DNA of 23,265 nucleotides. Source: Rhodospirillaceae bacterium (GTDB lineage: Bacteria > Pseudomonadota > Alphaproteobacteria > Puniceispirillales > Puniceispirillaceae). The DNA is taken from assembly GCA_002731315.1 (NCBI GenBank), contig PCBG01000002.1:112626-135890 (forward strand), given 5' to 3'. The notes under the pieces were generated by a model. That model saw nothing but the letters and a program-made list of their open reading frames with translations, was not told where the DNA came from and made no database searches. Position 1 is the first letter of the stretch. Every line of letters begins with the position of its first letter. The translations under genes and the position numbers were made by a program. Shown here piece after piece: positions 16,518 to 23,077 of this stretch.

Positions 16518-16550
16518 CAACCGCTGTGCAGCGGTTGCCTGATCTTTTTT
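16518..16550 (+). terminator. possible weak terminator after the carbonic anhydrase-like gene
   Basis: CAACCGCT (16518-16525) and AGCGGTTG (16530-16537) form an 8-bp stem with a four-base loop, and a six-T run lies at 16545-16550. The seven bases between stem and T-run make it weaker than the two clear terminators in this window. It lies 71 bases after the upstream stop and about 25 bases before the gabD start, so a regulatory or attenuating role is also possible. Confidence 0.4.
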
Positions 16551-16573
16551 CCAAAGCCGGAGACCACACTGCC

Positions 16574-18025
16574 ATGAACCTGAATGATCCCACTCTTCTT
16601 CGCACAGACTCCTACGTGAATGGTGTATGGAAGAAAGCCAAAGGCGACAAGCGATTTGTCGTAACCAACCCGGCAAATGATGCAGTGATCGCTGAGGTGG
16701 CTGATCTGGGCGCTGCAGAGGTGACAGCTGCCATCGACGCGGCCGAGCCCGCGCAGAAGGAATGGGCCGCGCGCACTGCCAAGGACCGCGCCATGGTGTT
16801 GCGTAAATGGTATGATCTGATAATGGCCAATACCGAAGATCTGGCCATCATCCTGACCACCGAGATGGGTAAGCCGCTGGCTGAGGCACGCGGCGAGGTT
16901 GTCTATGGTGCTAGCTTCATAGACTGGTTCGGCGAAGAGGCCCGGCGCGTATGCGGCGATGTTATGGAAAGTCCGATTCCTGACAAGCGCTTCCTGACCT
17001 TCAAACAACCGATCGGTGTGTTCGGCGCCATTACCCCGTGGAATTTCCCGATCGCGATGATCACCCGCAAGGTGGCCCCCGGCATTGCCGCGGGATGCGC
17101 CTGTGTGCTGAAACCAGCTGAACAGACGCCGCTGTCGGCGCTGGCGCTTGCAGAATTGGCACACCGAGCAGGACTGCCGGCTGGCATAATGAATATTGTC
17201 ACCGGCATGGATGCACCAGCCATGGGCAGTGCACTGTGCGATGATGACCGCATCCGCAAAATGACCTTTACCGGATCGACCGAGGTTGGTCGCATCCTGA
17301 TGCGCCAGAGCGCGGATACGTTAAAGAAGATGAGCCTCGAGCTTGGCGGAAACGCGCCGCTAATCGTCTTTGAAGATGCAGATCTCGACCTGGCTATCGC
17401 TGGAGCGATGGCATCAAAATACCGCAATGCCGGCCAGACCTGCGTCTGTGCCAATCGGATGTTCGTGCAGGACGGTATCTATGATGAATTTGCCCGCCGG
17501 CTGGTCGAGGCCAGTACTGCCATGAAGGTTGGGGATGGTCTGGAGGATGGCGTTGAACAGGGCCCAATCATTGATAAACACGGCCTTGCGAAAGTTGAGC
17601 AACATGTCGCCGACGCCATCGCAAAAGGCGCCACAGTGCTGACCGGTGGCAAGCGGCACGCGCTTGGTGGCACCTTTTACGAGCCAACCGTGCTGACCGG
17701 CATGTCATCCGACATGCAGATGTATGGCGAGGAAACCTTTGGACCGGTGGCAGGCCTCTTTCGATTTTCGAAAGATGACGAGGCAGTCGCGATGGCGAAT
17801 GACACCGAATTCGGTCTTGCCGCCTATATTTTTACCGACAGCACCTCGCGGCTGTTCCGCGTCAGCGAAGCGCTGGAATATGGCATGGTATCGGCCAATA
17901 CCGGTATTTTCTCGTCCGAGGTTGGCCCGTTTGGCGGGGTCAAAAGCTCCGGTCTCGGCCGCGAAGGATCAAAGTATGGAATCGACGAGTTTCTGGAGAT
18001 CAAATTCATCTGTGTGGGGTTTTAA
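16574..18025 (+). CDS. gabD: NAD(P)-dependent succinate-semialdehyde dehydrogenase
   Basis: This ALDH-superfamily enzyme oxidises succinate semialdehyde to succinate, feeding GABA or 4-hydroxybutyrate carbon into the TCA cycle. The 483-residue product aligns with E. coli GabD from its first residues (MNLND, then VNGVW and TNPAN). It has PWNFP (155-159), FTGSTEVG (232-239), the general base E256 (LELGGN) and the nucleophile C290 (NAGQTC, followed by VC as in GabD). The frame extends upstream to GTG 16526, but that stretch contains the hairpin and T-run, so ATG 16574 is chosen. Other semialdehydes (glutarate, malonate) cannot be excluded from sequence alone. A porin-like scrap follows directly in the same frame after the stop. 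Confidence 0.92.
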   Translation: MNLNDPTLLRTDSYVNGVWKKAKGDKRFVVTNPANDAVIAEVADLGAAEVTAAIDAAEPAQKEWAARTAKDRAMVLRKWYDLIMANTEDLAIILTTEMGKPLAEARGEVVYGASFIDWFGEEARRVCGDVMESPIPDKRFLTFKQPIGVFGAITPWNFPIAMITRKVAPGIAAGCACVLKPAEQTPLSALALAELAHRAGLPAGIMNIVTGMDAPAMGSALCDDDRIRKMTFTGSTEVGRILMRQSADTLKKMSLELGGNAPLIVFEDADLDLAIAGAMASKYRNAGQTCVCANRMFVQDGIYDEFARRLVEASTAMKVGDGLEDGVEQGPIIDKHGLAKVEQHVADAIAKGATVLTGGKRHALGGTFYEPTVLTGMSSDMQMYGEETFGPVAGLFRFSKDDEAVAMANDTEFGLAAYIFTDSTSRLFRVSEALEYGMVSANTGIFSSEVGPFGGVKSSGLGREGSKYGIDEFLEIKFICVGF

Positions 18026-18226
18026 CCCGTAGGCCGAGCAATGGCCGCGAGAATTCCCAGCGCCTCAGCCCAGATGAAATCTGATGGTGCCGACGAGATG
18101 ACCAGCATTGGGGTCGGGCATCAGGTTAGTGAAAATGCGATATTAATGGCCGGTTTTGACAGTTATAACACCGACCGGGAAACCATTTTGCTTGCTTATA
18201 TGGGGGTGCGCTTCAACTTTGACTAA
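18026..18226 (+). pseudogene. remnant resembling the C-terminal end of an outer-membrane porin
   Basis: Directly behind the gabD stop, in the same frame, an open stretch of 66 codons ends at TAA 18224-18226. From the ATG at 18041 it would make 61 residues. The last 45 alternate polar and hydrophobic residues in beta-strand style and end LLAYMGVRFNFD, much like the final strand of trimeric porins, though a true porin would end at Phe rather than Asp. There is no ribosome site before the ATG, and the end overlaps the convergent reductase gene by 14 bases. I read it as a decayed 3' fragment left after a deletion or rearrangement; a chance open frame is the main alternative. Confidence 0.35.
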
Positions 18227-19082
18227 GCCGGCGGATCAGCGCCGAGGTATCATTGCCGCCATGGCCAGCGGCTGACAGCTCGTCATAATAGCCCGCCACA
18301 ATCTGGGTCACGGGCAGCGGCGCGCCCTTGCGCCCTGCCTCCTCAAGGCAAATGCGCAGATCCTTTCGCATCCAGTCCAGCGCAAAACCAAAATCAAATT
18401 CACCTTTCACCATGGTATGGCCACGGTTCACCATCTGCCATGATTGCGCCGCGCCGCCGGAAATCGCCTCGAGCAGCGCATCGGTATCAAGGCCTGCCGC
18501 TATGGCAAAATTCAGCCCTTCCGACAAACCCTGCACCAGACCGGCAATGCAGATCTGGTTGACCATCTTGGCCTGCTGGCCCTTGCCGGCATCGCCCATG
18601 CGTACAACGCGCGCGCCATAGCATTCCATAATTGGCAAGCCGGATTCGAAATCTGACATGCTACCCCCCACCATGACAGTCAGCTTGCCATTCTCGGCAC
18701 CTGCCTGGCCGCCCGATACAGGGGCATCCAGAACCCCGATGCCACGCTCCGCGCCGGCGGAAGCCAGCTGCGTCGCCACTGCCGCCGATACCGTGCTGTT
18801 ATCTATATAAAGTGCGCCAGGCTTCATCGCTGGAATCGCCCCCTCTGGCCCCAGCGCCACCTGCAACACATCCGGGTCATCACCAACACAGGAAAGCACC
18901 ACATCGGAATCAGCCGCCGCTGCAGCCGGTGTGGCAGCCATGAACCCGCCATGCTGCTCCGCCCATTGCTCTGCTTTAGCCGTGGTGCGGTTATAGACAG
19001 TTACCTCATGGCCTGCAGCGGAGATATGGCCAGCCATCGGGTGTCCCATCACACCCAATCCGAGAAACGTTACCTTTGCCAT
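18213..19082 (-). CDS. NAD(P)-dependent 3-hydroxyisobutyrate dehydrogenase-family oxidoreductase (GarR/GlxR/MmsB-like)
   Basis: This beta-hydroxyacid dehydrogenase of 289 residues has the nucleotide-binding GLGVMG (8-13) followed by HPMAGH, the substrate-binding DAPVSGG (119-125), and the catalytic K172 in GKGQQAKMVNQ. Family members reduce tartronate semialdehyde, succinate semialdehyde or glyoxylate, or oxidise 3-hydroxyisobutyrate. The motifs do not separate these, although gabD next door makes a semialdehyde substrate attractive. The frame is open to 19244, but ATG 19080-19082 has AAGGGG upstream and the Rossmann motif follows at once. The usual PMAxN has His instead of Asn (H19), a mild deviation. 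It diverges from hpt across 173 bases. Confidence 0.88.
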   Translation of the reverse strand: MAKVTFLGLGVMGHPMAGHISAAGHEVTVYNRTTAKAEQWAEQHGGFMAATPAAAAADSDVVLSCVGDDPDVLQVALGPEGAIPAMKPGALYIDNSTVSAAVATQLASAGAERGIGVLDAPVSGGQAGAENGKLTVMVGGSMSDFESGLPIMECYGARVVRMGDAGKGQQAKMVNQICIAGLVQGLSEGLNFAIAAGLDTDALLEAISGGAAQSWQMVNRGHTMVKGEFDFGFALDWMRKDLRICLEEAGRKGAPLPVTQIVAGYYDELSAAGHGGNDTSALIRRLSQS

Positions 19083-19167
19083 CCGTGGCCCCTTCTGTTG
19101 TCTGTTACCAACCTGATGATATGATGCCCCGGAGGTAAACCTGCATGCGCCGTTGGTCAAGTTAGCC

Positions 19168-19196
19168 TTCGCAATCAGCGAAAGAAGCCCTATAAT
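19168..19196 (+). promoter_or_regulatory. candidate sigma-70 promoter for hpt
   Basis: A perfect -10 TATAAT (19191-19196) is preceded after 17 bases by TTCGCA (19168-19173; four of six match TTGACA). Transcription would start near 19203 and give a 5' leader of about 53 bases. It is the best -10 box found in any intergenic region of the window. Confidence 0.6.
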
Positions 19197-19255
19197 CCTA
19201 CCCATAGGCAAGATGCGGTGCACCCCATCTTCTGACGATATCAAAAAGGTATAGC

Positions 19256-19795
19256 ATGACCGTCCTGTCCAGCCAGAATGATATCCGAATTCTGATCACC
19301 GAAACCGAAATCGCGGCGCGGACAACTCAGTTAGCGCGACTGATTTCTGAGGAATATAAGGATACAAAGCAGCTTGTTGTGGTTGGTTTGTTGCGCGGCT
19401 CCTTTGTGTTTATCGCCGACCTGGTACGTCGCATTGATCTTCCGGTAGAGGTCGATTTCATGACCGTTTCCAGCTATGGCAATGCGATGGAATCATCGCG
19501 TCAAGTGCGAATCATTCAGGATCTGATGACCCCGATCGAAGCCCGTGATGTGCTGATTGTCGAGGATATCGTAGATACCGGCCACACGCTGTCACAGGTT
19601 TATGACATTTTGCAGACACGGGAACCGGCGTCGCTGCGTGTATGTGCACTTTTGAACAAGCCTTCACGTCGCGAGATTGATGTTGTCATCGACTGGGTGG
19701 GTTTCGATATTCCGGACGAATTTGTTATCGGTTACGGGATTGATTACGCGCAGCAGGGGCGCAATCTACCGCATATCGGCGTTGTATCCAAATAG
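19256..19795 (+). CDS. hpt: hypoxanthine phosphoribosyltransferase
   Basis: The cytoplasmic purine-salvage enzyme converts hypoxanthine (and often guanine) plus PRPP into IMP or GMP. The 179-residue product has the usual length. It shows the pyrophosphate-binding GLLRGSF (44-50), the flexible-loop region with VSSYG (71-75), the PRPP-binding [11 protein letters not shown] (102-112), and the purine-binding end [17 protein letters not shown]. The ATG at 19256 has AAGG eight bases upstream. It is convergent with dddP; the 57 bases between the two stops show no clear terminator. Confidence 0.95.
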
Positions 19796-19852
19796 AGCGC
19801 CCTACCAGCGCCAATGAACCGGGTTTGGGCAGACGTCAGTCTATCAGCCCCA

Positions 19853-21181
19853 TCAGGCAAGCAGCGCCTTTTCATAAGGGTAATGTGACAGCGGCTTGCA
19901 TCCAGTTTCAGTGACAACAACCTGCTCTTCTAGCTTAACACCTTCTTGTCCGCCAACCGCACCCACATATGCCTCGACGCATAATGCCATGCCGGGCAGA
20001 AAGCTGCCTGAATAGCCATGTGCCTCTACATCCTCGGGATAGCGCACGCTTGGATATTCGTCGCAAAGCCCAACCCCGTGGGCCAGCACGCCATACCTTA
20101 ACGGCCGATAGGCCTCTGGCAGGCGATGTGCCTTTGCGGTCATTTCTACAAAGCTCATCCCCGGCTTGATCAAGCTGATATTTGTCATGACATGTTCATA
20201 GGCAATCTGGTAGAGCATCCGCTGTTCATCCGTCGGCTTAGCGTCTTCTACAATCCAGCTTCGCGATATATCGCAGCAATAGCCATGCGTGCCGACAAGA
20301 TCGGTGTCAAAGGCCATCATGTCACCTTCCTGCATGATTCGCGGACCGCATTCCTGAAACCAGGGATTGGTGCGCGGGCCAGACGCAAGGATGCGCGTCT
20401 CAATCCACTCGCCCCCGCGTTTAATATTGCCGGCATGGAGCGCCGCCCACATTTCATTTTCCGATACGCCCGGGCGCATTGCATCCCGCATTTCATCAAC
20501 GGCGCGCTCGCAGGCATGAATGGAACAGCGCATGGCATTCAGCTCATTGGCATTCTTGACCGACCGCGCATGTTCGGTCAGCACCTGGCCTTCCAGCACA
20601 TCAACATCATTGGCGCGCAGTGCGGCATAGCCGACATGTTCGATACGGTCGACAGCCAGTCTCTTATTCTTGCCGCCAAAACGGGCCATCAGGTCAAGAA
20701 TAATAGCCACAAATTCATCAGCCGCTGCCGCGGTCTTGTCGCCGGTTTCAAAATAAAAGAAGCTGGCACCATGGCGCACTTCATCAATCAGGGGCAAGTG
20801 CTGAGAAAGATGTTCGCAATTGTGGAAATCCCACAGGATAACGTTGCCCCGCGGCGGCACAAAACAGGCACGCGCCGGATTATGCGTAGTCCAGAGCTGC
20901 ATATTTGTCGCATCGGTCGCATAGCGGATGTTCAGCGGGTCAAACAATAACAGACCTGCACAATCATAGCGGATGATCTGTTCCTGAAGTCGTGCCAAGC
21001 GGTATTCACGCAAAGCAGGCATGTTAGGTGCTTGCAGCCCTGCCGCCGCCCACTCGGCAAAGGCCATATCGGTAGGGCCAATCTCTACCCGGTCATTATC
21101 CTTTGGCGTTCCGTCAGGCTTGAGGTGTGCTCGGCGGGACGGATGTATCTTACGATTGGATCCAATAATGGTCTGATCCAT
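19853..21181 (-). CDS. dddP: DMSP lyase DddP (M24-fold metalloenzyme)
   Basis: DddP cleaves dimethylsulfoniopropionate to dimethyl sulfide, acrylate and a proton in the cytoplasm. The 442-residue protein has the M24 (pita-bread) fold of prolidases but carries DddP-specific stretches: ATNMQLW (91-97), KRGGEWIETR (254-263) and ASGPRTNPWFQECGPR (266-281). Metal ligands are D292, D294, D304, H368, E403 and E418, and the proposed catalytic base is D374 in HGVGLCD. Each is exactly three less than in the numbering I recall for the Ruegeria lacuscaerulea enzyme (295, 297, 307, 371, 406, 421 and 377), so the spacing is identical. ATG 21181 is preferred over ATG 21193 because GAGG lies six bases upstream. 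It lies downstream of acuI on the same strand, which would clear the acrylate product. No regulator gene lies nearby. Confidence 0.93.
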   Translation of the reverse strand: MDQTIIGSNRKIHPSRRAHLKPDGTPKDNDRVEIGPTDMAFAEWAAAGLQAPNMPALREYRLARLQEQIIRYDCAGLLLFDPLNIRYATDATNMQLWTTHNPARACFVPPRGNVILWDFHNCEHLSQHLPLIDEVRHGASFFYFETGDKTAAAADEFVAIILDLMARFGGKNKRLAVDRIEHVGYAALRANDVDVLEGQVLTEHARSVKNANELNAMRCSIHACERAVDEMRDAMRPGVSENEMWAALHAGNIKRGGEWIETRILASGPRTNPWFQECGPRIMQEGDMMAFDTDLVGTHGYCCDISRSWIVEDAKPTDEQRMLYQIAYEHVMTNISLIKPGMSFVEMTAKAHRLPEAYRPLRYGVLAHGVGLCDEYPSVRYPEDVEAHGYSGSFLPGMALCVEAYVGAVGGQEGVKLEEQVVVTETGCKPLSHYPYEKALLA

Positions 21182-21214
21182 ATCGGGCCTCATCTTTCAA
21201 GTGCGGACAGTTTG

Positions 21215-21220
21215 CTTATA
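21215..21220 (-). promoter_or_regulatory. candidate -10 element for dddP
   Basis: On the minus strand TATAAG (five of six match TATAAT) lies 34-39 bases before the preferred dddP start and about 65 bases after the stem-loop behind acuI. No good -35 hexamer is found at 16-18 bases; TTGACT lies 24 bases upstream. If real, the promoter would be weak or need an activator. Confidence 0.3.
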
Positions 21221-21285
21221 TCCGCCTGAAACTTTGCGTCGGCCAGTCAAATGACGCAACAGTTAGTTGATTTAATGCCCTATCC

Positions 21286-21346
21286 AAAAACAGAGGTGCA
21301 TTCTCGATATCTACTTGCCTGCAAGTCACCCACGTTTTGCACCTCT
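21286..21346 (-). terminator. stem-loop with T-run between acuI and dddP
   Basis: A 9-bp perfect inverted repeat, AGAGGTGCA (21292-21300) with TGCACCTCT (21338-21346), encloses 37 bases that include a second small palindrome ACTTGC-CT-GCAAGT (21313-21326). On the minus strand it is followed by one base and then TTTTT (21286-21290). It sits only seven bases after the acuI stop. It could be a partial terminator, a transcript-stabilising 3' structure, or a binding site. Loop size makes it weaker than a standard terminator. Confidence 0.45.
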
Positions 21347-21353
21347 TGCAATG

Positions 21354-22346
21354 TCAACGATTCACATCGACCAGAATGCGGCCACACACCTGACCTTTCA
21401 GGATTTTACTGCCAAAATCCTGAACCTCTGACAGGCCTATTTCCTTGGTCATTACCGCCAAAACATCACGCGGCATTTCTGCGGCCAGCGCAGCCCAGAT
21501 TTCGGTACGCCGCGGGACCGGTACACTGACCGAGTCGATGCCAAGAATATCTACGCTACGAAGCAGGAACGGAATAATACTGGCATGCATTGTTCCGCCC
21601 GCGGCATTGCCAAGCGAGGCAATGCCCGCGCCATATTTCATCTGTTTTATAACGCGTGCCAGCACCTGGCCACCCACACAATCCAGGCAACCGCCCCAAA
21701 CGGCTGATTCCATGGGCTTGCCAGGATCATCGAGCAATTCGTCGCGTCCAACGATACGGCTGGCGCCAAGTTCAGTCAGATAAGTGGCGATTTCTGATCG
21801 ACCCGTGGCTGCCGCAACCTCATAACCACGGCGTGACAACAGCGCCACCGCCACCGAGCCAACACCGCCGCCAGCTCCAGTAACAAGGACCTCTCCACTA
21901 TCCGGAGTCATCCCGTTTTCCTCGAGCCGCAGGATTGACTGCATGGCGGCAAACCCGGCCGTGCCGAGCGCCTGTGTCTCGCGCGTGGTCATGCCCTGTG
22001 GCACTTTCACCAGCCAGTCAGCCTTTTCATTAGCACGGGTGGCAAAGCCACCCCAGCGGTTTTCACCGCCGCGAAAGCCTGCCATGATGACCTTATCGCC
22101 TGGCGCAAATCGCGAATCGCGGCTATTGATCACCTCGCCAGCGAAATCGACACCGGGCACGTGCGGATATTGGCGTACAAGACCGCCAAGCCCATTCAGG
22201 CACAGCCCGTCCTTATAGTTGATCGTTGAATATTCGACGGCAATATCGACCTCGCCATCGTCCGGCAGGCGCGATTCTGCGATTTCCTCAACAGTGGCTG
22301 AAAGCGACTTGTCCTCAAGCTGATCGATAATTAGCGCTTTAACCAT
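21354..22346 (-). CDS. acuI: acrylyl-CoA reductase AcuI (YhdH-type MDR oxidoreductase)
   Basis: AcuI reduces acryloyl-CoA to propionyl-CoA with NADPH in the cytoplasm. It removes a highly reactive intermediate made from the acrylate released by DMSP lyases. The 330-residue product is close in length to E. coli YhdH. It shows the family signatures YSTINYKDGL (39-48), PGVDFAGEV (64-72), the NADPH-binding GAGGGVGSVAV (157-167) and ATGR (180-183), without the zinc ligands of classical alcohol dehydrogenases. ATG 22344-22346 has AAAGG about nine bases upstream. It is followed after 172 bases by dddP on the same strand. In roseobacters acuI is best known beside dmdA; here it stands beside dddP. Confidence 0.93.
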   Translation of the reverse strand: MVKALIIDQLEDKSLSATVEEIAESRLPDDGEVDIAVEYSTINYKDGLCLNGLGGLVRQYPHVPGVDFAGEVINSRDSRFAPGDKVIMAGFRGGENRWGGFATRANEKADWLVKVPQGMTTRETQALGTAGFAAMQSILRLEENGMTPDSGEVLVTGAGGGVGSVAVALLSRRGYEVAAATGRSEIATYLTELGASRIVGRDELLDDPGKPMESAVWGGCLDCVGGQVLARVIKQMKYGAGIASLGNAAGGTMHASIIPFLLRSVDILGIDSVSVPVPRRTEIWAALAAEMPRDVLAVMTKEIGLSEVQDFGSKILKGQVCGRILVDVNR

Positions 22347-22376
22347 GTTTGTGACCTTTGCTAATCTCTATTCCGG

Positions 22377-22411
22377 AGCGCCGTTATGGTAGCGCCGGTC
22401 TGTGCTGACAG
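22377..22411 (-). promoter_or_regulatory. candidate acuI promoter flanked by direct repeats
   Basis: On the minus strand CTGTCA (22406-22411) and CATAAC (22383-22388) are 17 bases apart, each matching four of six consensus bases. The -10-like box lies between two copies of the direct repeat CGGCGCT (plus-strand AGCGCCG at 22377-22383 and 22391-22397, 14 bases apart). Such an arrangement would suit a repressor or activator site. The whole gap between acuI and the rhodanese gene is only 98 bases, so the element could act on both. Confidence 0.3.
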
Positions 22412-22444
22412 AAATCTGCCAGATCAACGCCAAAAGGGGAAGTT

Positions 22445-22849
22445 ATGTTTCGCGAACTCACACCACCTGAATGCTTTGGCGAACTCGCGGAAAAACCCGA
22501 TGCAGTGCTGATCGACTGCCGTACGCCTGCGGAGTGGCATTTCACAGGCACCCCGGACCTGTCCTCCATTGGTAAGAAGGCGCTATTGCTTGCCATTGCA
22601 GATGAGAGCGGACGCCCCAACCCAGAATTTGTCGCAACCGTGACATCGATAGCCGGTCATGACACGCCACTCTATCTGCTGTGTCGTGTTGGCGGCCGGT
22701 CTGACAATGCCTGTCAGTTGCTGGGGCAGGCCGGATTTACCGATTTGGTGAATATCATCCAAGGGTTCGAGGGTCGGGTTGATAAAAACGGTCATCGCAA
22801 CAATACCGAAGGTTGGAAATTCCACGGCTTGCCATGGCATCAGGGTTAA
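22445..22849 (+). CDS. rhodanese-like sulfurtransferase
   Basis: This single-domain rhodanese of 134 residues moves a sulfane sulfur via a cysteine persulfide. The active-site loop is CRVGGRS (80-86) with nucleophile C80, and the N-terminal CRTPAEWHFTG (25-35) is the conserved rhodanese start motif. The C-terminus GWKFHGLPW is typical of a common alphaproteobacterial subfamily. There is no signal peptide, so it is cytoplasmic. The ATG at 22445 has AAGGGGAAG just upstream. It diverges from acuI with a shared 98-base promoter region; the donor and acceptor of sulfur are unknown. The gap after it (22850-23077) is AT-richer and holds an 8-base inverted repeat CTATTATC/GATAATAG (22877-22884 and 22916-22923) but no gene I can support. 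Confidence 0.88.
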   Translation: MFRELTPPECFGELAEKPDAVLIDCRTPAEWHFTGTPDLSSIGKKALLLAIADESGRPNPEFVATVTSIAGHDTPLYLLCRVGGRSDNACQLLGQAGFTDLVNIIQGFEGRVDKNGHRNNTEGWKFHGLPWHQG

Positions 22850-23077
22850 TTATTCGTTCAATGAAAATTCAAACAGCTATTATCCGGCCTTAGCTCGATG
22901 GCAGCACCATAGCGTGATAATAGAGTCCCAGCGTTTCTTTAAATTCAGCCAGCTGTTGTTACGCGATGAGTTTGTCCTCAGATGCTCAGAGAATTTATCG
23001 CAAGACATCTTAATTACGCTGGGATGCGTCATTTTTAACCACTGGTAATGGTCGGGATAACACCCCATGTCTCTCCC

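Follow-up and report, generated by a model that had tools for sequence, protein, structure and literature searches.

A predicted DddP-type DMSP lyase gene adjoining acuI in a Puniceispirillaceae contig: a linkage widespread in the SAR116 dddP type

Dimethyl sulfide (DMS) is a climate-active gas. The present analysis concerns two adjacent genes, acuI and dddP, predicted to act on dimethylsulfoniopropionate (DMSP) and its breakdown product acrylate, in a 23,265-nucleotide stretch (hereafter the window; all coordinates are positions in it) of contig PCBG01000002.1 from a Rhodospirillaceae bacterium of the SAR116 order. Such a pair is already known. Todd et al. (2012, PMC3338564) described acuI upstream of dddP in the relative Candidatus P. 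marinum IMCC1322, which the available excerpts of that paper present as the sole dddP-acuI linkage then known, and suggested that dddP had reached Candidatus P. marinum by horizontal transfer; according to the same excerpts, no roseobacter has a tight dddP-acuI linkage. The observation is repeated in PMC4029986, and excerpts of Choi et al. (2015, PMC4304780) report that IMCC1322 makes DMS from DMSP and that its dddP transcription is raised. Other described systems place acuI beside different DMSP genes: acuR-acuI-dddL in Rhodobacter sphaeroides (PMC3017554) and dmdA-acuI in roseobacters (PMC3338564). For the SAR116 clade itself, dmdABC has been assigned to most members and DMSP lyases to subclades I and III (PMC12262181), or dmdA to one subgroup only (PMC8547437); the term acuI does not occur in the portions of these two papers that were available.

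Both window open reading frames (ORFs) are uninterrupted, adjacent and on the same strand, acuI preceding dddP in the direction of transcription. A first-pass annotation of the window had placed an AcuI/YhdH reductase upstream of dddP, and the ORF coordinates agree, as does the score of the reductase with TIGR02823 (394 bits for a cut-off of 297). The same genes in the same order are found in IMCC1322 (SAR116_1428, SAR116_1427). In genome G079, which we take to be probably that of IMCC1322, the two genes likewise share a strand, acuI coming first with 94 bases between them, and hpt is again the neighbour. The window represents another species, its DddP being 75% and its AcuI 55% identical to those of G079, and its intergenic gap is 160 bases long with a terminator-like hairpin, whereas the gap of about 94 bases in G079 has none. 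The R. sphaeroides cluster resembles the window in having acuI beside a DMSP-lyase gene, but its lyase belongs to another family, its genes are co-transcribed and it includes the regulator acuR (PMC3017554), while neither TetR (AcuR type) nor GCV_T (DmdA) domains were found at E<=0.001 in the 21 main window ORFs scanned. In the roseobacter dmdA-acuI pair (PMC3338564), AcuI likewise accompanies a DMSP gene, but the partner is a demethylase, acuI lies 3' of it, and the AcuI of Ruegeria pomeroyi falls elsewhere in the tree than that of the window. The earlier view that acuI next to dddP differs from the roseobacter dmdA-acuI layout is correct as to the difference, but the layout is no new departure, being the one already published for IMCC1322 in PMC3338564.

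The window pair very probably encodes a DddP-family DMSP lyase, predicted to cleave DMSP to DMS and acrylate, together with an AcuI that would clear acryloyl-coenzyme A (acryloyl-CoA). At a two-metal centre of DddP, Asp378 would act as catalytic base, the acrylate would presumably be converted to acryloyl-CoA by a CoA ligase encoded outside the window, and AcuI would use NADPH to reduce acryloyl-CoA to propionyl-CoA, thereby holding this toxic compound low. Family membership, active site, adjacency and conservation are supported by the sequence and by published homologues. In a PDB search, the window protein matched the DddP of Ruegeria lacuscaerulensis (RlDddP, 4rzy) with 514 bits (E=3e-153) and that of Roseobacter denitrificans (4b28) with 481 bits, the identities being 53% over 438 columns and 49%, respectively; both solved proteins share with it the active-site residues, their spacing, a full-length alignment and the clade. 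Window residues D296, D298, D308, H372, E407 and E422 (446-aa numbering) align with RlDddP 295, 297, 307, 371, 406 and 421, and D378 and Y367 with 377 and 366, all with identical spacing. The first six of these positions are taken to be the metal ligands, and D378 and Y367 the catalytic Asp and the conserved Tyr of DddP; in the alignment, PDB chains 4s01 and 4s00 depart from 4rzy at 377 and 366. A rule of six ligands for DddP (three Asp, two Glu, one His) is given in PMC5395565. Ligands, Asp and Tyr are kept in all 75 aligned sequences, including DddP-like plasmid proteins that are 39-48% identical; taken alone, they consequently separate DddP from generic M24 proteins and not from its DddP-like sisters. 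The first-pass annotation had taken the six ligands and the catalytic Asp with DddP spacing, plus long DddP-specific stretches, as a sign that the protein is no generic Xaa-Pro peptidase: the alignment to RlDddP confirms the residues and they do speak against a generic M24 peptidase, but they do not set the protein apart from the plasmid sisters.

The dddP start is probably the ATG at 21181. The motif ATGGAYCAGAC at this start is common to eight of nine aligned sequences, the in-frame ATG further upstream at 21193 is common only to L001, the locus of the nearest relative, and DddP homologues are mostly 442 aa long among the 120 matches listed.

The DddP phylogenies are quick trees with SH-aLRT support (an approximate likelihood ratio test) and no bootstrap. 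Ten partial or interrupted copies out of 82 were left out beforehand, and 14 of 75 rows, mostly near-duplicates or second copies per genome, were further removed by hand to give a tree of 61 rows. There, the window protein adjoins that of L001, from a SAR116 metagenome-assembled genome (MAG), within a SAR116 clade of 26 rows (support 100), and a larger clade of 54 rows (SH-aLRT 99) unites it with both structure-solved DddPs and with gammaproteobacterial DddPs. Four plasmid-borne DddP-like proteins (L094-L097, from Pseudomonas, Parasedimentitalea, Rhizobium and Paraburkholderia) branch outside the 54-row clade. Their genes lie near Rieske-type oxygenases, a BCCT transporter or a trimethylamine methyltransferase family gene, and they have the DddP active site with about the first 45 profile positions unmatched (three scanned); possibly they are betaine-related enzymes.

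The linkage was followed through 136 genomes of the order (dddP limit E<=1e-60). dddP is present in 58 of them. Thirty-eight have a SAR116 type, 72-96% identical to that of the window, 23 have a divergent type (45-56%), and three of these genomes have both. Of the 38 SAR116-type genomes, 30 have an acuI 5' of dddP in the same orientation on one contig, with gaps of 56-193 bases in 26 and of 458-1603 bases in four, and partial acuI copies upstream of dddP in G070 and G108 bring the figure to 32. In four of the remaining six, the contig stops no more than about 1 kb from dddP. In G123 the slot contains dddP and acuI is on a different contig; in G098 dddP is close to the end of a contig, a slot with acuI only being present elsewhere. 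No acuI was found near the divergent dddP in any of the 23 genomes, some copies being close to contig ends. A comparison of 58 dddP loci gives a similar picture: acuI is upstream in 22 of 27 SAR116-type loci (19 directly, three with an intervening gene), the other five being L010, without acuI, and four cut by a contig end, and it is absent within 6 kb of dddP in the 31 loci of other types, a few of which have little flank. An acuI-dddP pair is what the SAR116 dddP type normally shows and no strain peculiarity, which adds to the earlier report a linkage that extends widely across this type, beyond one strain.

Table 1. Features of the acuI-dddP region in the window
Feature	Position	Strand	Basis and remarks
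dddP, DMSP lyase DddP (predicted)	19853..21181	-	442 aa from the likely start; ORF to 21193, 446 aa; profile, PDB, residue, tree and start evidence
acuI, acryloyl-CoA reductase (YhdH/AcuI; predicted)	21354..22346	-	330 aa; TIGR02823 above cut-off, PDB 5gxe AcuI, tree
Terminator-like hairpin just 3' of acuI	21286..21346	-	Folding compared with shuffles
Likely ribosome-binding site GAGG of dddP	21188..21191	-	TGAGG there in 6 of 9 aligned sequences
Rhodanese-domain gene, divergent, left border of the slot	22445..22849	+	Pfam Rhodanese; adjoins acuI in many SAR116 loci
hpt (hypoxanthine phosphoribosyltransferase), convergent, right border of the slot	19256..19795	+	TIGR01203 above cut-off; adjoins dddP in SAR116 loci

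Several observations weigh against a DMSP lyase paired with an acryloyl-CoA reductase, to which the intergenic hairpin and a null search for PrpE, both described below, have to be added. DMS production has been published for the IMCC1322 culture and not for the window protein; the activities of both proteins are predicted, as are the CoA-ligase step, coordinated expression and the use of propionyl-CoA as carbon. Scored with NF043017, the DddP model of NCBI, the window protein reaches 583 bits, below the cut-off of 600. Among the controls, the SAR116-clade proteins of G079 (L071, 572 bits), L009 (599) and L022 (591) fail too, so that the cut-off shuts out all four SAR116-clade proteins tested, the window's included (572-599 bits); RlDddP (915), two divergent-type proteins of the order (776 and 867) and an Oceanimonas protein (629) pass, and DddP-like plasmid proteins fail (375, 383 and 441). 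We read the shortfall as a calibration limit of the model rather than the lack of a defining feature. The window AcuI is similarly below the cut-off of the AcuI equivalog model NF051456 (367 bits for 440), as are the aligned part of R. pomeroyi AcuI (431), to which it is 55% identical, and four AcuIs of the SAR116 order (373-399), while the aligned part of E. coli YhdH passes (466). Since R. pomeroyi AcuI belongs to another branch of the AcuI tree, no tested AcuI falls within the branch of the window protein; in favour of the reductase role, an E. coli yhdH mutant is hypersensitive to acrylate (PMC3338564). Finally, the role of acuI is not bound to DddP, since seven of the 20 acuI loci fetched have it beside hpt and lack dddP. 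As to the lyase, the protein could be an M24 Xaa-Pro peptidase of the ordinary kind. Several database entries name such proteins in this way, JGI and some NCBI names among the homologues listed reading Xaa-Pro (amino)peptidase, labels which the NF043017 cut-off may explain for SAR116-clade DddPs, and Pfam gives Peptidase_M24 only. Such an identity seems hardly credible, as the best peptidase in the PDB scores 61 bits against 514 for RlDddP. Moreover, eight other M24 ORFs from two SAR116 genomes, when added to the tree, stand behind a long branch (support 100, with a warning from the tool that long branches meet), and none of them has Asp at the Asp378 position, in an alignment that is rough at this distance and in which three of the eight look misaligned. 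The first-pass annotation had named a position outside the DddP clade as the result that would speak against it; in both the 61-row tree and the tree with the M24 ORFs the protein lies within that clade, and this position together with the PDB scores upholds its statement that the protein is no generic Xaa-Pro peptidase. Alternatively, a DddP-like enzyme might act mainly on another methylated compound, for instance a betaine. The plasmid proteins, with the same active-site residues and the neighbours described above, would fit such an activity, as would the Michaelis constant of DddP for DMSP, 14-17 mM (PMC5395565). Nevertheless, these four proteins branch outside the clade of the window protein and the solved DddPs, and G079, whose presumed source culture makes DMS from DMSP, shows the same gene arrangement with a DddP that is 75% identical, which makes this alternative improbable.

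The two genes may also be neighbours without being one transcription unit, acuI acting as a general guard against acryloyl-CoA with its own terminator and dddP having a promoter in the remaining 100 or so bases. To this possibility we give slightly less than an even chance. The distance from acuI to the first in-frame dddP ATG is 160 bases, and directly 3' of acuI it contains the hairpin, whose outer stem of 9 bp (arms 21338-21346 and 21292-21300) is followed by GTTTTT. Its energy is -19.2 kcal/mol, and none of 20 single-base shuffles folds as well; the gap as a whole folds modestly (z -1.38, 14 of 200 shuffles equally good). Of 22 acuI-dddP gaps folded (L024/L090 and loci with an intervening gene being omitted), four, those of the window and of its relatives L001, L004 and L006, have a similar hairpin, and the acuI loci beside hpt that lack dddP also speak for independent transcription. 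A hairpin in this place argues against a simple operon, and partial termination between acuI and dddP is plausible from the sequence. On the other hand, the adjacency of the genes is conserved, none of the other 18 gaps has a hairpin that outdoes every one of 20 shuffles, and four gaps, 55-68 bases long, resemble those within operons. A promoter scan of 19700-22900, covering one promoter type, gave no sigma-70-like site where 2.6 were expected; the corresponding terminator scan gave three terminator-like sites where 3.1 were expected, its loop limit of 8 leaving out the hairpin at 21286-21346. Rfam had no match in the window at the gathering threshold. For the acuI-dddP unit of the first-pass annotation, adjacency and common strand stand; with the terminator-like hairpin between them, the genes may or may not form a single transcription unit.

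The order and strand of rhodanese, acuI, dddP and hpt, often with a beta-hydroxyacid and an aldehyde dehydrogenase, are kept in SAR116-type loci, and in some of these a fusion of alpha/beta-hydrolase and OsmC domains lies between acuI and dddP. The divergent dddP can occupy the same place: in five of nine fetched divergent-type loci (L080, L081, L084, L086 and L088) it adjoins hpt with a permease of the tripartite ATP-independent periplasmic (TRAP) type upstream, at 155-233 bases from dddP in three and beyond an alpha/beta-hydrolase-OsmC fusion in two, L086 also having DctQ and DctP. The TRAP system is a candidate importer of DMSP or acrylate. The divergent DddPs of the hpt slot group with roseobacter DddPs and not with the SAR116 clade. 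Thirteen of the 20 fetched acuI loci come from genomes with a divergent dddP, and in nine of these (L098-L103, L115-L117) acuI immediately precedes a DmdA-like gene in the same orientation; of the other four, L104 and L105 have acuI elsewhere, and L109 and L112 have it beside hpt. None of these DmdA-like genes reaches the DmdA cut-off (eight as listed, the ninth judging by the best score of G136). Compared with the dmdA-acuI order of roseobacters, the order in these loci is the reverse. It is conceivable, although we hold it only tentatively and on balance somewhat doubt it, that two DddP lineages of distant relationship, 72-96% and 50-56% identical to the window protein, occupy the dddP-facing-hpt slot with modules of their own: acuI, sometimes with the OsmC fusion in between, in one, and the TRAP permease, sometimes with the fusion, in the other, whose acuI stands beside a DmdA-like gene.

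The OsmC fusion was seen upstream of dddP in both branches (L019:559-1776, L080:10180-11538, L020, L021, L022, L073, L074 and L084), its domains being assigned by Pfam on L019 and L080 only. In the literature searched, the sole paper with both dddP and OsmC is, by its title, an unrelated genome report on a soil Pseudomonas. Three divergent dddP loci (L082, L083 and L085) are not in the hpt slot; each has a weak GcvT/DmdA-like match (28-32% identity) nearby. Beyond hpt in the window, the beta-hydroxyacid dehydrogenase ORF (18213-19244) is probably over-extended from a TTG start, as family matches start near residue 55. A 3-hydroxypropionate branch through this enzyme and a succinate-semialdehyde-type dehydrogenase (16526-18025) was considered and dropped as unsupported, both genes also occurring beside hpt without dddP (L107, L112).

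Other DMSP genes were sought in G001, the genome of L001, an incomplete MAG of 1.8 Mb whose DNA is about 91% identical to the window across 12.8 kb of alignment; what follows on dmdA, PrpE and similar functions concerns this nearest relative and not the organism of the window. A single dddP and a single acuI pass the limits used in G001, which also has a DmdA of 568 bits (cut-off 410) on another contig and two weaker DmdA-like proteins. DmdA is above the cut-off in 38 of the 136 genomes, including 22 of the 38 with SAR116-type dddP, so DMSP cleavage and demethylation often coexist. The earlier remark that dmdA and acuR are lacking accordingly holds for the 21 main ORFs scanned in the window, but the nearest genome has a DmdA. 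No PrpE above the cut-off was found in G001, a weak negative since the cut-off was reached in only one of 14 control genomes; the best match was rejected as an acetyl-CoA synthetase (Acs 1106 bits; PrpE 549, cut-off 827). Neither methylmalonyl-CoA mutase nor a BCCT transporter was found in G001, and its carboxyltransferase is below the family cut-off; G079 has the mutase and the transporter and no strong carboxyltransferase. The methylmalonyl-CoA route is thus incomplete in what was found in both genomes, the methylcitrate route not having been searched, and the carbon use proposed by the first-pass annotation gains no support. From its overall interpretation both identifications and the adjacency are retained; the layout is not new, and a single transcription unit and carbon use stand as possibilities.

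The surprising parts lie around the known pair, in the shared hpt slot, the exchange of partners and the recurrent OsmC fusion. If the slot is indeed held by two DddP lineages, either one dddP replaced another in place or dddP is ancestral to the order. Acrylate clearance would then be linked with DMSP cleavage in the branch that has the SAR116-type dddP and with a demethylase-like enzyme in the divergent one, and the OsmC fusion would be an unrecognised recurrent partner of DddP. A practical gain is that the NCBI DddP model narrowly misses the SAR116-clade proteins tested, which is consistent with their Xaa-Pro peptidase labels. Since excerpts of PMC4304780 describe SAR116 as the dominant dddP-containing group in the oligotrophic northwestern Pacific, the way in which it combines DMS formation with the removal of acrylate is relevant to DMS in the ocean.

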